From the NCBI GenBank assembly GCA_022823505.1, contig JAJEIA010000100.1, forward strand, positions 27,113 to 91,112: DNA of 64,000 nt. The letters are read 5' to 3'. The DNA comes from Dehalococcoidia bacterium (lineage in GTDB: Bacteria > Chloroflexota > Dehalococcoidia > Lucifugimonadales > UBA3495). Shown here piece by piece: positions 17,736 through 24,200 of the stretch (its first letter is position 1; each line of letters starts with the position of its first letter). The translations under genes were made by a program, and so were the position numbers. The notes beneath the pieces were generated by a model. That model ran no database searches. It had not been told where the DNA came from and worked only from the letters and a program-made list of their open reading frames with translations.

Positions 17736-18122
17736 TCAAACGGCCTCATTGACGGACGGTGTCATCGCCGCAATGTCGCTTCCATGATCAGACAACAAGA
17801 CGCCATCTTCTGGGAGATAATCATGGTCCAGTAACGCGCCCTGATGAAGCTCCAGAGCAAAAGGATTCTCAAAGTTGTCGCTCACGCGAGCCAGATACCA
17901 GCCGCCGTATGAGCAATCCAGCAGCACGGCTCGTAAATCGCACCTGCCCGCTCTCAACTCGCGTAACTGTTCCGGCGATACGCGCGTTATCAGATAGCGG
18001 TCCGCATCCGAGGCCGAGTCAATCAACGCGCCAAGATAGCGGGATCCATTGGCATCCTTGCCCTCAAAGACCTGGACGCCATCGTAGTACAAAAGCGTTG
18101 CGGTCAGCTGTGCCGTTTTCAT
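17736..18122 (-). CDS. Hypothetical protein (128 aa)
   Basis: Intact ORF MKTAQLTATLLYYDGVQVFEGKDANGSRYLGALIDSASDADRYLITRVSPEQLRELRAGRCDLRAVLLD. Confidence 0.6.
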   Translation of the reverse strand: MKTAQLTATLLYYDGVQVFEGKDANGSRYLGALIDSASDADRYLITRVSPEQLRELRAGRCDLRAVLLDCSYGGWYLARVSDNFENPFALELHQGALLDHDYLPEDGVLLSDHGSDIAAMTPSVNEAV

Positions 18123-19128: not shown

Positions 19129-21534
19129 TTACCGCAGCTGCACCACCGTCACGCCGGCCGCGTTGCCGCCCTCGCCCGGCTCCGTCGCGGCCACCAGCGG
19201 ATGCCCCGACAGGTACTCCCGGATCGCCCGCCGCAGCGCGCCGGTGCCCTTGCCGTGCACGATCTTCAGCGACGACATGCCTTCCAATGCGGCATCGTCC
19301 AGCAGCGAGTCGATCACGTTCAGCGCCTCATCGACCCTGTACCCATGCAGGTTTACCTCGGGGCTCAGCGTCCGCTTGCTCTCGGGTCGGCGATAGACCA
19401 CGCCGGCCTGCTCCGCCACCGGGTGCAGCCGGTCGGCCGGGCGGTCCAGCTGGTACACCGGCAGCCGGGCTTTCATGCTGCCGATGAGCACCTCAATCTC
19501 CTGCTGCTGGTCGGGCGCGGACACCACTTCGACCGGACGGGATACGCCGCGGATATACACGCGGTCGCCGACGCGCAGGTCGTGGTACCACGGTGGCCGC
19601 TCCACGGGGATCGGCGCCCAATCAGGGGACACCACCTCCCGCTGCGCCTCCGCCAGCCGCTCGCGTTCCGCCCGCAGATCAACCTCCCGAGCCTGGGCGT
19701 CGGCGACCACGGCAGAACGCTCCAGCGACCGCTCGGCGCGACGGATCCGCCCGGACAGATCCACGATCTGTTCGGCCAGCTCGCGTCGGGCATCCTCCAC
19801 CAGTTGGGCCTTGGTGTCCTCCACCGCGTCCAGTTGCTGTGCGATCTCCTGCTCGCGGGCCCGTGCCGTATTCAACGCCTGCTCCGCCTCCAGGCGCAGC
19901 TCGGATACGGTGAGCCGCTCCTCCTGCAGCTCCTGGAGCAGTTGGTCGGTGCGCACGTGGCTCGGTTCCAGGTGCGACTGCGCGCCGGCGATGACCGCGC
20001 CCGGCAGGCCAAGCCGGGCGGCGATGGTCAGGGCGTAGCTGCGACCGGGAACCCCGTGGGTCAGGCGGTAGGTGGGTTCCAGCGTGCGCGGATTCAGGTC
20101 GACGCTGGCGTTGACCATGCCCGGCTCCTCCTGGGCCAGCCGCGCGACGTTCCGGTGGTGCGTCGTCGCCACCACCATGGCGCCCAGGTCCCGGAGGTGG
20201 GACAGCAGCGCAATCGCCAGGGCCGACCCTTCCTCGGGATCGGTAGCCGAACCAAGCTCGTCGATCAAGATCAGCGAGTTCGCGGTGGCAACAGCCATGA
20301 TGCGCTGCAGGTTGCTGATGTGACTGCTGAAGGTGGACAGGGACTCGAAGATGCTCTGCTGATCTCCGATGTCGGCGTATACGCCGTCCAGCAGCGGCAT
20401 CACCGCGTCGTCAGCCGGCACCTGGAGGCCCGCGTGGGCCATCATGGCCAGGAGGCCGACGGTTTTCAGGGCCACGGTCTTGCCGCCCGCGTTGGGACCG
20501 GTGATGACCAACACCGGATGCCCCTCGGCGATACCAATCGTGGTGGGCACTACCTCGCCGGTCAGCAACGGGTGTCGCGCACCGACAATGTCCATGCGTC
20601 GCGTCTCGTCCGGACCCATCAGCGTGGGCGACACGGCTCGCAACGCCGCCGCGTACCGCCCCTTGGCCGCGGCCAGGTCCAGCCGGGCCAGCAGGCTCAG
20701 CATCAGGGTAATGTCGTCCGAGTACCGGCCCACCATTTCCGACAACTGGCGCAGGACCCGTTCTTCCTCGCGTTGCTCCGCCAGGCGCGTCTCCCGCCAG
20801 CGGTTGCCCAGGTCAATGGCCGGCATGGGCTCGATGAACACGGTCGCCCCGCTGTCGGACACGTCGTGGACGATGCCGGGCGCCTGCCCCTTGAACTCGG
20901 TCTTGATGAGCAGGACCATGCGCCCGTTGCGCTCGGTGACGATGTCCTCCTGGATAACGCCCGAGCGCTGGTACCGCCGCAGCGACCGTTGCATCACGTC
21001 GTTCAGCGATGACCAGGCGGAGCGCGATTCGCGCCGCAGTCGTCCCAACTCGGGCGAGGCATCGTCCAGCACCTCGCCGGACGGGCCAATGGCGCGGTTG
21101 ACGCCGCTCTCCAGATCGGGCAGTTCCGGCAGGTTCTGGGCGATGGCCGCCAGGACGGGCAGGTCGTCGCGTCGCGCCAGGGAGTTGCGGTTCCAGCGGG
21201 CCGCCGCGGCCAGCGCGCCCAAATGGCGCAGTTCTTCGCCGCGCAGCACCCCGCCCAGCAGGGCGCGCTGCACCGCCGGGCGCAGGTCTTCCTCGGGGCC
21301 AAGTTCCAGGTCGCCGGTGGTATCCAGCAGGCGACGAGCTTCGGCGGTTTCCTGCTGCCGCACGGCGATGTCGCGCGGGTCCGGCGAGGGGGTCAGTTCG
21401 GCGGCTAACTCGCCGCCCAGGGTGGTGCGGGTGGTTTCAGCCAGGCGGAGCCGGATTTGGTCGAATTCCAGCAGGCCGATGGCGCGCTGAAACCCCGCTT
21501 CGGGTGGAATGGATTGGTCCTCCGCCGATGTCAT
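19129..21534 (-). CDS. mutS2: MutS2 family ATPase with C-terminal Smr domain
   Basis: HPVLVITGPNAGGKTVALKTVGLLAMMAHAGLQVPAD; SLILIDELGSATDPEEGSALA; Smr domain VNLHGYRVDEALNVIDSLLDDA...LKIVHGKGTGALRRAIREYL. Confidence 0.96.
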   Translation of the reverse strand: MTSAEDQSIPPEAGFQRAIGLLEFDQIRLRLAETTRTTLGGELAAELTPSPDPRDIAVRQQETAEARRLLDTTGDLELGPEEDLRPAVQRALLGGVLRGEELRHLGALAAAARWNRNSLARRDDLPVLAAIAQNLPELPDLESGVNRAIGPSGEVLDDASPELGRLRRESRSAWSSLNDVMQRSLRRYQRSGVIQEDIVTERNGRMVLLIKTEFKGQAPGIVHDVSDSGATVFIEPMPAIDLGNRWRETRLAEQREEERVLRQLSEMVGRYSDDITLMLSLLARLDLAAAKGRYAAALRAVSPTLMGPDETRRMDIVGARHPLLTGEVVPTTIGIAEGHPVLVITGPNAGGKTVALKTVGLLAMMAHAGLQVPADDAVMPLLDGVYADIGDQQSIFESLSTFSSHISNLQRIMAVATANSLILIDELGSATDPEEGSALAIALLSHLRDLGAMVVATTHHRNVARLAQEEPGMVNASVDLNPRTLEPTYRLTHGVPGRSYALTIAARLGLPGAVIAGAQSHLEPSHVRTDQLLQELQEERLTVSELRLEAEQALNTARAREQEIAQQLDAVEDTKAQLVEDARRELAEQIVDLSGRIRRAERSLERSAVVADAQAREVDLRAERERLAEAQREVVSPDWAPIPVERPPWYHDLRVGDRVYIRGVSRPVEVVSAPDQQQEIEVLIGSMKARLPVYQLDRPADRLHPVAEQAGVVYRRPESKRTLSPEVNLHGYRVDEALNVIDSLLDDAALEGMSSLKIVHGKGTGALRRAIREYLSGHPLVAATEPGEGGNAAGVTVVQLR

Positions 21535-21572
21535 GCCGGAATTATAGCACCGGCGACAATGACGACCTGGCG

Positions 21573-21854
21573 TCATAATCCGATTTCACTATGCGAACCG
21601 AGACGCACCAGTTCAAGAAGTTCGTCTCCCAATTTACGATAAATCAGCACCAAGTCGAACCTGAGGTGGCAGTCCCGGTGCCCTACCCAATAACCAGTCA
21701 AAGAGTGGTCGCGGTAACGGAGAGGCAGCGCTTCGTCGGTTGCCAGCAGTTGCACGACTTGTTCGAATTCAGCTTCAAGGGTTGTACGATAGCGGCCCCT
21801 TGCCACTCTCCGGTAGTCGCGCCTGAACGAACTGGCTCGTCTAATCCTCCTCAT
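21573..21854 (-). CDS. YafQ/RelE-family ribosome-dependent mRNA interferase toxin
   Basis: MRRIRRASSFRRDYRRVARGRY...LPLRYRDHSLTGYWVGHRDCHLRFDLVLIYRKLGDELLELVRLGSHSEIGL; YafQ-type motifs (DHxLxGxW...ECHxxPDLVLIY...LxLxRxGSHSEL). Confidence 0.9.
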   Translation of the reverse strand: MRRIRRASSFRRDYRRVARGRYRTTLEAEFEQVVQLLATDEALPLRYRDHSLTGYWVGHRDCHLRFDLVLIYRKLGDELLELVRLGSHSEIGL

Positions 21855-22113
21855 CGCTATTCAAGTCTGCCATCAATTCGGCCACGCTATCGAAAGTGGG
21901 CAGGGATCCATTCTCCAGCTCTTCCATTGCCGCTATCGTCTCCGGGCCGGGGATGATGCAGGAGAAGGGCAGATCGTCTTCATCGGCTATGTTCTGCATC
22001 AGCAGGTAAAGCGCATCGGAGATAGTGAGGTAGTGACATTCCAGCACCGCCTGCACTTTTTCCCACGTCTGCCGGTCAACGCTGGCGCTGGCGCTGATTT
22101 TAACTTCGCTCAT
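21841..22113 (-). CDS. RelB/DinJ family antitoxin
   Basis: MSEVKISASASVDRQTWEKVQAVLECHYLTISDALYLLMQNIADEDDLPFS; DinJ-like RHH N-terminus, 14-nt overlap with yafQ-like toxin. Confidence 0.88.
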   Translation of the reverse strand: MSEVKISASASVDRQTWEKVQAVLECHYLTISDALYLLMQNIADEDDLPFSCIIPGPETIAAMEELENGSLPTFDSVAELMADLNSDEED

Positions 22114-22157
22114 ATCTGCAACCTCCCGATTGCCGCGCCTTCGCAGTATATTCTATG

Positions 22158-22955
22158 TCAGTCCGGCCAGATCAGCGGGTACAGGCGGCACTGGTACAGC
22201 ATAGCCCCGACCTCGTCCAGGGCGGCGCGGTTGGGCTCACGGACGTCCAGCCGGCGCTCCAGGATTATCGGAGTAAGGCGGGACAACGTCTTGCATTCCC
22301 GGAGGAAACCGTTGACCGTGGCGCCTTCGCCGCCCAGCGCGACGTAGTCGAGCTTGTGCATCCAGGGCCGCCACTGCGCGTCCAGGACGCCGGACGCCTC
22401 CGCGTACAAACGGTGGATCTGATTTTCCCGGACCCGTTGGAACCGGCGTTGGGAGGTTCCCCCGGCGTGATGCTTTCCCTTCACGTAGCGGGTGTCGGTT
22501 TTGGACACGGCCAGGCGTTGACCCTCGTACACTGCGATGGCGTAGCGTCCCAGCCGCACCAGCGCGACGCCGATGGTCAGCTCGGCCGACAGCATCGTGC
22601 GCAGCGGCCAGTCGTAAATGATGTCCCCCGTCCACATGTCGTTCAGGGGAAACGGGGGCAACACCGCCACACCGGCGTTGCCAATGCGGAACGCAATGAC
22701 GCCCGTGGGCGAACGCAAGACGCGACTGCCGGCCCGTTCCAGGGTCGCTATCCAGGAGTCCGGGCCCCGGTCCTGGGACAGGGCCAACATGGCGGAGTGG
22801 TCCCGCGCTGCCTCGCCCGGGAAATAGAGCGTGGCCGAGAGGGCGGCGCTCTCCGATCGCGTCCGGAGCTCGGTCAGCAGGGCGTCCATGCGCTGCGCCG
22901 ACACCGTCTGCCCGGCCCGGATGTTAAAGTCCGTTAGCACACTCTCCCCGCGCAT
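22158..22955 (-). CDS. Vms1-like release factor (acVLRF1-type peptidyl-tRNA hydrolase)
   Basis: eRF1-like fold order with SKTDTRYVKGKHHAGGTSQRRFQRVRENQIHRLYAEA: basic GG-x-S-Q-RRF-x-R-x-R-x-NQ loop characteristic of VLRF1/Vms1 (catalytic Gln). Assigned by eye. Confidence 0.7.
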   Translation of the reverse strand: MRGESVLTDFNIRAGQTVSAQRMDALLTELRTRSESAALSATLYFPGEAARDHSAMLALSQDRGPDSWIATLERAGSRVLRSPTGVIAFRIGNAGVAVLPPFPLNDMWTGDIIYDWPLRTMLSAELTIGVALVRLGRYAIAVYEGQRLAVSKTDTRYVKGKHHAGGTSQRRFQRVRENQIHRLYAEASGVLDAQWRPWMHKLDYVALGGEGATVNGFLRECKTLSRLTPIILERRLDVREPNRAALDEVGAMLYQCRLYPLIWPD

Positions 22956-22971
22956 GATTAATGATAACCGA

Positions 22972-23051: not shown

Positions 23052-24200
23052 ATGGTTTCCCACGACGCACCCACCGATTCCAGTTCAGAGACCCTGTCCG
23101 CACACGAGCGTCAACAACGAACATTGCAGCGACTGGACGACGGACATGCCGCGTTGCTGGACGCGCTGGAGGGACTGGGCGAAGCCGAGGCGTTCCTCGG
23201 TTCACGCTGGTCGGTCTGGGAGGTCATGCAACACCTGCTCACCGAGAGTTTCGTGGAGGCGCTGGAGCAGATAGCTTCGGGCGAGCGGGAGATGCTGCCG
23301 CCTTTTGACCCTCGCACCGACCGCATCGCCGCCGACGTGGCCAAGCTGGAGGCCAACTACCGGCGGTTCCGTAATCTCATATCGGGACTGACCGAAGAGC
23401 AACTGGACCTTCCGGCCACGCCCTACAACCCGGAAAACAACTATCCGGCGCTGTCCCTGCTGGACCTGATCGAACGGGTGTCCGGGCACGAGGGCAATCA
23501 CGCCCGGCAGGTGGTGGAAACACGGAAGTACGTAGCCGCGTTCCGGTCCGCCGAGCGGGCCGTGACCGTCGCGGGGTTGGGAACCGGCGACCGCCAGGGC
23601 GTGCCCACCCAGACCCGGGAACTGCTGTCCAATGCCGATTATGTCGTCGGAACCCAGCCAGCGCTGGCCGTCGCGCGCCCGTGGATACGCGCGGTGGAGC
23701 TGGAACTGCGTCCGGACAACCGGGAAGAGTTGGTCAACCGGCTGGTTCGCGACATCCGGGCCGGCCTGTGGTCCATGGTGGTGACGCTGGGTGATCCGGC
23801 GGAATCCGCGCCCGGCCTGATCCGCCAGTTGGAGCAGGCGGTGGGCACGGTTGCCACGGTGGGCGCGCCCGGCTTTTACCGTCGGGCCCTGGATCTGGCC
23901 GGCATCTCGCCCCTGGATGCCGTCTGCGCGTCCGTGGAACGGATTCACGATACCAGGGCGATACCGGATACCGGCGGCCGGGCGCTGGTGGTGCTGGGAG
24001 CGGAGCACGCCGTTCCCTGGCGGGAGACTGCCGGCGCTCTGGTTGCCTCGGGTATCGAGACAGACCGGGCCGCCCGATGCGTGTCGAACCTGTCCGGACA
24101 GGCGACGGTCACCCCCACAACACTCCGGCACGTGCTGGAAACCGCGATCGGCGACACCCCGGTGGAGGTGGACTCGGCCCTGGTGCTGGACCCGGCGTGA
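23052..24200 (+). CDS. DinB-like domain fused to tetrapyrrole-methylase-like (CbiE-like) domain
   Basis: N-term FLGSRWSVWEVMQHLLTESFVEALEQI...LIERVSGHEGNHARQVVETRKYV (DinB_2-like); C-term VTVAGLGTGDRQGVPTQTRELLSNADYVVGTQPAL...LWSMVVTLGDPAESAPGLIRQLEQAVGTVATVGAPGFYRRALDLAGISPLDAVCAS (TP methylase-like). Confidence 0.65.
   Translation: MVSHDAPTDSSSETLSAHERQQRTLQRLDDGHAALLDALEGLGEAEAFLGSRWSVWEVMQHLLTESFVEALEQIASGEREMLPPFDPRTDRIAADVAKLEANYRRFRNLISGLTEEQLDLPATPYNPENNYPALSLLDLIERVSGHEGNHARQVVETRKYVAAFRSAERAVTVAGLGTGDRQGVPTQTRELLSNADYVVGTQPALAVARPWIRAVELELRPDNREELVNRLVRDIRAGLWSMVVTLGDPAESAPGLIRQLEQAVGTVATVGAPGFYRRALDLAGISPLDAVCASVERIHDTRAIPDTGGRALVVLGAEHAVPWRETAGALVASGIETDRAARCVSNLSGQATVTPTTLRHVLETAIGDTPVEVDSALVLDPA

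Follow-up and report, generated by a model that had tools for sequence, protein, structure and literature searches.

Gene content of the locus

The window analysed here, a stretch of 64,000 nucleotides on contig JAJEIA010000100.1, comes from a metagenome assembly (87% complete) that is most closely related, among named genomes, to SAR202 and Dehalococcoidia bins of the Chloroflexota. Between positions 19129 and 22955 its minus strand carries four open reading frames (ORFs), which encode, in transcription order, a VLRF1-like release factor, a DinJ-like antitoxin, a YafQ-like toxin and MutS2 (Table 1). An initial annotation, made from the sequence alone, had read these genes as a single candidate ribosome-rescue operon. 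Its account of the layout holds, with four codirectional genes separated by short gaps or an overlap, and so do its gene identities, each of which is backed by Pfam and NCBIfam matches. VLRF1 and DinJ are spaced by 44 nt, DinJ and YafQ overlap by 14 nt, and YafQ and MutS2 are 38 nt apart; if the upstream ATG at 21576 is the start codon, MutS2 would be 815 amino acids long and the last spacing would become a 4-nt overlap.

Table 1. Features of the VLRF1–MutS2 locus in window coordinates (aa, amino acids; E, expectation value)
Feature	Position	Strand	Remarks
acVLRF1-family Vms1-like release factor	22158..22955	-	265 aa; PF18859 E 1.4e-28; eRF1/Vms1 fold
Catalytic-type loop GGTSQ	22449..22463	-	residues 165-169 of the 265-aa VLRF1
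-10-like TATCAT, 5 nt before vlrf1 ATG, possible leaderless start	22961..22966	-	TATCAT/TATGAT in most congeners
DinJ/RelB-type antitoxin, passenger	21841..22113	-	90 aa; PF04221 E 8e-8
-10-like TATACT upstream of dinJ	22145..22150	-	similar TATAYT box in other congeners with the toxin–antitoxin pair
Shine-Dalgarno-like GGGAGG of dinJ	22122-22127	-	
YafQ-type mRNA interferase toxin, passenger	21573..21854	-	93 aa; YafQ_toxin PF15738 E 6e-26
MutS2 (ABC-type ATPase, KOW/MSSS, Smr)	19129..21534	-	801 aa; TIGR01069 749 bits
-10-like TATAAT, 6 nt before mutS2 ATG, possible leaderless start	21541..21546	-	from comparison of congeners

VLRF1 scores 100 bits against the Pfam acVLRF1 model (cut-off 27.1) and falls under the cut-off of the stricter NCBI model (106 versus 125). 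Its predicted structure (pLDDT, predicted local distance difference test, 86; pTM, predicted template modelling score, 0.83) matches aRF1/eRF1 with E values of 1e-10 to 1e-7 and, at an E value of 8e-5, 60S-bound yeast Vms1 (6r84, 196 columns, 5.8 Å); a profile of the VLRF1 family, in turn, finds aRF1 in the PDB (E 7e-15). Both the family assignment and the likeness to Vms1 proposed for this gene are thus borne out. Balon structures are also among the fold matches, and aRF1 and Vms1 are matched about as well as Pelota, or better. As judged from the model and the fold search, the protein consists of an eRF1 domain-2 fold with an N-terminal extension, with no codon-recognition or Pelota domain, and no further Pfam domain is found in it.

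The GGxSQ loop that characterises the acVLRF1 clade is present as GGTSQ. Both glycines and the serine are invariant in 60/60 VLRF1 proteins, the arginines after GGxS are invariant or nearly so, and most of the family, the window protein included, keeps the glutamine. Homologues in which GGxS is followed by Ser, Ala or Glu are encoded at loci L088, L089, L090, L092, L096, L097, L121, L126, L128-L131, L137, L140 and L141. In genome G197, the vlrf1 gene (L090:2861-3639), which encodes Glu at the Gln position, appears to be broken up into two ORFs, reflecting either decay or an assembly error.

MutS2 clears the TIGR01069 cut-off of 400 bits, matches MutS_V, MSSS (KOW-like) and Smr, and aligns over its full length with the ribosome-bound MutS2 chain 7qv3_v (448 bits). 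It has Walker A (GPNAGGKT) and Walker B (LILIDE) motifs and, in the Smr domain, NLH and HGKG. The Smr-nuclease motif DxH is often lost in MutS2, which splits ribosomes without cutting (PMC10897456), and NLH in the place of DxH is compatible with splitting without cleavage in the present protein as well.

The vlrf1-mutS2 adjacency is conserved

The neighbourhood survey covered Chloroflexota, with a 197-genome sample of the window's order and a 301-genome sample of the phylum; f1 and g1 denote the family and genus of the window. In f1, vlrf1 is the immediate upstream neighbour of mutS2, in the same orientation, in 32/33 sampled VLRF1-bearing genomes, the exception being G003, in which the two genes are 156 kb apart. 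The same gene order recurs in families f4 and f10 of the order and in 5/6 genomes of f15. The reverse order, mutS2 followed by vlrf1, is found in family f20 of the order and, outside the order and within the class, in eight genomes from seven families. The paired genes overlap by 4 nt in representatives of both arrangements (L098 and L105 with vlrf1 first, L093 and L097 with mutS2 first).

On the VLRF1 tree the mutS2-first arrangement needs at least two changes, which are forced by well-supported branches, and on the MutS2 tree the f20 pair groups with the vlrf1-first families, apart from the other mutS2-first set. Since the two mutS2-first sets are apart in the protein trees, at least two events formed or rearranged the adjacency, and such repetition speaks for function. 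Among vlrf1 genes that are not linked to mutS2, no shared neighbour turns up at more than 4 of 20 loci. The pairing of VLRF1 with MutS2 is real and conserved, and the association noticed in this one genome extends to nearly all sampled VLRF1-bearing members of its family and to further families in two gene orders.

DinJ–YafQ is a passenger at the junction

Taken by themselves, the two genes between vlrf1 and mutS2 make up a recognisable DinJ–YafQ toxin–antitoxin pair: a RelB/DinJ-type antitoxin gene overlaps a yafQ gene, and the toxin matches solved YafQ chains (best E 2.8e-15). The pair is intact at the junction in only 4/14 congeners (G000, G006, G010 and G011). G004 has a shortened YafQ, and in G005 a stop interrupts the toxin; the pair has decayed in G009, the antitoxin alone is left in G007, and in G002 the toxin type has been swapped, with a RelB-like antitoxin next to a PIN-domain toxin (L115:3501-4237). 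G001, G008, G012 and G013 have neither a toxin–antitoxin pair nor any other gene at the junction. In the other genera of f1 the place is empty or taken by unrelated small ORFs (G015, G480) or, in G033, by an IS200-like transposase.

The junction YafQs are 58-64% identical to that of the window, and copies elsewhere in these genomes reach at most 41%, with the exception of a 35-residue fragment in G012 (54%). A single insertion followed by decay is thus the simplest history. DinJ–YafQ is a passenger inserted at the junction. We rejected it as a module member, given that most congeners, and the rest of the family, have no pair there, a decayed one or something else in its place, and the earlier view of the toxin–antitoxin pair as a working part of a rescue module falls with it.

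Transcription signals and flanking genes

Every g1 genome read has TATAAT immediately ahead of the mutS2 start codon, whether or not the toxin–antitoxin pair is present, and this includes G003, where mutS2 lies elsewhere; TATCAT or TATGAT precedes the vlrf1 ATG by 5-7 nt in most genomes. Of all ATGs in the window, 0.1% have an exact TATAAT 5-11 nt upstream. dinJ has a -10-like box and a Shine-Dalgarno-like site of its own. A sigma-70 scan detected no promoter in the gene block, because its pattern requires a -35 element; the -10-like boxes emerged only from comparison. These signals suggest, without proving it, that vlrf1 and mutS2 are each carried on leaderless transcripts in g1, which makes a single four-gene operon doubtful here. 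The proposal of one operon is accordingly weak for the present locus, and is better suited to the families with 4-nt overlaps, in which a vlrf1-mutS2 operon is likely.

Divergently from vlrf1, the window encodes on the plus strand (23052-24200) a protein that combines a DinB_2 domain at its N terminus with a weakly tetrapyrrole-methylase-like C-terminal region, which is syntenic in much of the family. At 17736-18122 on the minus strand, between VOC and MFS genes, lies a small DUF6575-like protein whose match is slightly under the cut-off.

Distribution of VLRF1, MutS2 and RqcH

In the order sample, 127 genomes have both VLRF1 and MutS2, 22 have MutS2 only (14 of them from f19), five have VLRF1 only and 43 have neither. 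RqcH, searched for as NFACT_N with positive controls included, is over the cut-off in 0/197 of these genomes, and relatives that are up to 100% complete agree. In the phylum sample, RqcH is found in 0/15 genomes with a strong acVLRF1 match compared with 135/301 overall. As most of the 15 come from one RqcH-less class, this is consistent with replacement and is not an independent proof of it. Weak acVLRF1 matches outside the class (about 30-55 bits) were kept apart from the strong set because 20/28 of them lie in RqcH-bearing genomes. Two loci of f48, a family outside the class (L146 and L147, genomes G104 and G290), have a strong acVLRF1 match with a GGWSQ loop, no MutS2 over the cut-off and no RqcH. 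SmpB was found in 16/17 genomes tested, missing only from the window's own incomplete assembly.

Discussion

We propose that, in a lineage of Chloroflexota devoid of RqcH, VLRF1 and MutS2 work together as a two-protein unit for ribosome rescue, with the toxin–antitoxin pair as a passenger, and we put the probability of this reading at about 0.58. In B. subtilis, collided ribosomes are split by MutS2, which feeds RqcH (PMC10897456). By analogy, the Smr and KOW parts of MutS2 would recognise the collision, and its ATPase would drive splitting of the ribosome as shown for the B. subtilis protein (PMC10897456). The single-domain VLRF1 could then enter the empty A site on the 50S subunit, where its GGTSQ loop would hydrolyse the ester bond. 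In genomes in which RqcH is absent, the peptide would thus be freed without RqcH alanine tailing. It seems to us an even bet that this amounts to an RqcH-free form of bacterial ribosome-associated quality control (RQC), in which a dedicated Vms1-type factor is paired with MutS2 in parallel to Vms1 on the 60S subunit, and in which some lineages have a Gln-less, non-catalytic helper.

Several observations weigh against the proposal. Most other families of the order (f26, f113, f109, f6, f7 and others) carry the two genes at separate places, and f48 has VLRF1 without MutS2 over the cut-off. Conversely, MutS2 occurs in several Chloroflexota (e.g. f49, f63 and genus g45 of f27) that lack both RqcH and acVLRF1, so the partner is not obligatory. 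The co-occurrence and RqcH tests are confounded by kinship, which inflates the counts within the order. The loop glutamine has been replaced by Ser, Ala or Glu in several lineages, with at least six changes on the tree and some of them directly beside MutS2; since it is lost in several MutS2-linked relatives, hydrolysis may not be the common function, which limits generalisation. Finally, 17/17 genomes tested have Pth, to which the release of RQC chains is ascribed in B. subtilis (PMC11317155). With SmpB and Pth nearly everywhere among the genomes tested, there are routes to rescue or release other than VLRF1.

Part of this evidence would fit a VLRF1 that works alone, either on the intact stalled 70S ribosome in an ArfB-like release reaction or before splitting, with MutS2 as a merely co-regulated rescue gene. 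Many acVLRF1 genes are indeed not beside mutS2, f48 has VLRF1 without MutS2, and bacterial VLRF-1 is presented as standalone in its original description (PMC6514570). That paper ascribes acVLRF-1 to Actinobacteriota (PMC6514570), a group in which neither MutS2 nor RqcH was found in 3,213 genomes (PMC11633108). The repeated tight linkage with a ribosome splitter in two gene orders would then be a coincidence, and we consider such independent action unlikely. The loop, in turn, invites the reading of VLRF1 as a non-catalytic A-site binder, similar to Balon or Dom34, that aids MutS2 splitting or protects the subunits, hydrolysis being secondary or absent. GGxS and the arginines are invariant or nearly so, yet the glutamine was lost several times, also beside MutS2, and Balon is represented among the fold matches; against this, the window VLRF1 has retained the glutamine, as has most of its family, and aRF1 and Vms1 match at least as well as Pelota. 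This reading appears rather improbable to us.

Two further readings concern the gene order itself. General synteny or shared growth regulation could hold the pair together without any pathway in common, and the DinB-like gene next door is likewise syntenic in much of the family. This gene, however, shifts relative to the pair (L040, L044, L055) whereas vlrf1 and mutS2 stay together, and the distant mutS2-first families show the 4-nt overlaps, which leaves this explanation with little credence. The four-gene module of the initial annotation, in which YafQ makes stalls that its neighbours clear, draws on the codirectional genes with short gaps and on YafQ relatives of solved structure that carry the name mRNA interferase. 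It is very hard to reconcile with a junction that is empty in four congeners and most of the family, holds decayed or solitary remnants in G007 and G009, and has taken up a PIN toxin in G002 and an IS200-like transposase in G033, or with the separate -10-like boxes of vlrf1, dinJ and mutS2; we regard it as extremely improbable.

The proposed VLRF1–MutS2 unit bears on a gap in bacterial RQC, for which no dedicated termination factor is known (PMC11317155): the pairing of VLRF1 with MutS2, conserved in genomes that lack RqcH, points to such a release factor. RqcH and MutS2 co-occur, and about 13% of RqcH-less genomes still carry MutS2 (PMC11633108); pairs of the present kind would explain part of these genomes. 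No earlier report of the pair was found in the literature searched (acVLRF1, MutS2 with Vms1, SAR202 ribosome rescue). With only two proteins, the system is amenable to in vitro test.

Among known systems, the DinJ–YafQ toxin–antitoxin family is matched by both genes, which are only a passenger at this junction. The window VLRF1 belongs to the acVLRF-1 family defined by Burroughs and Aravind in 2019 (PMC6514570) and shares its GGxSQ motif. The available text of that paper treats bacterial VLRF-1 as standalone and independent of RQC components, with MutS2 unnamed in the main text, and does not describe the glutamine losses found here. The likeness to eukaryotic Vms1/ANKZF1 consists in an eRF1-domain-2-type fold, a glycine-containing loop with Gln and the fold match to 60S-bound Vms1; in contrast, the window protein is without the zinc finger, ankyrin and VIM parts, has GGxSQ rather than GxuQ, and would act after MutS2 without an RqcH/Rqc2 homologue. 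The MutS2–RqcH pathway of B. subtilis uses the same splitter with the same domains, but its release step is ascribed to Pth (PMC11317155), whereas here RqcH was not found and it is a Vms1-like factor whose gene accompanies that of the splitter.
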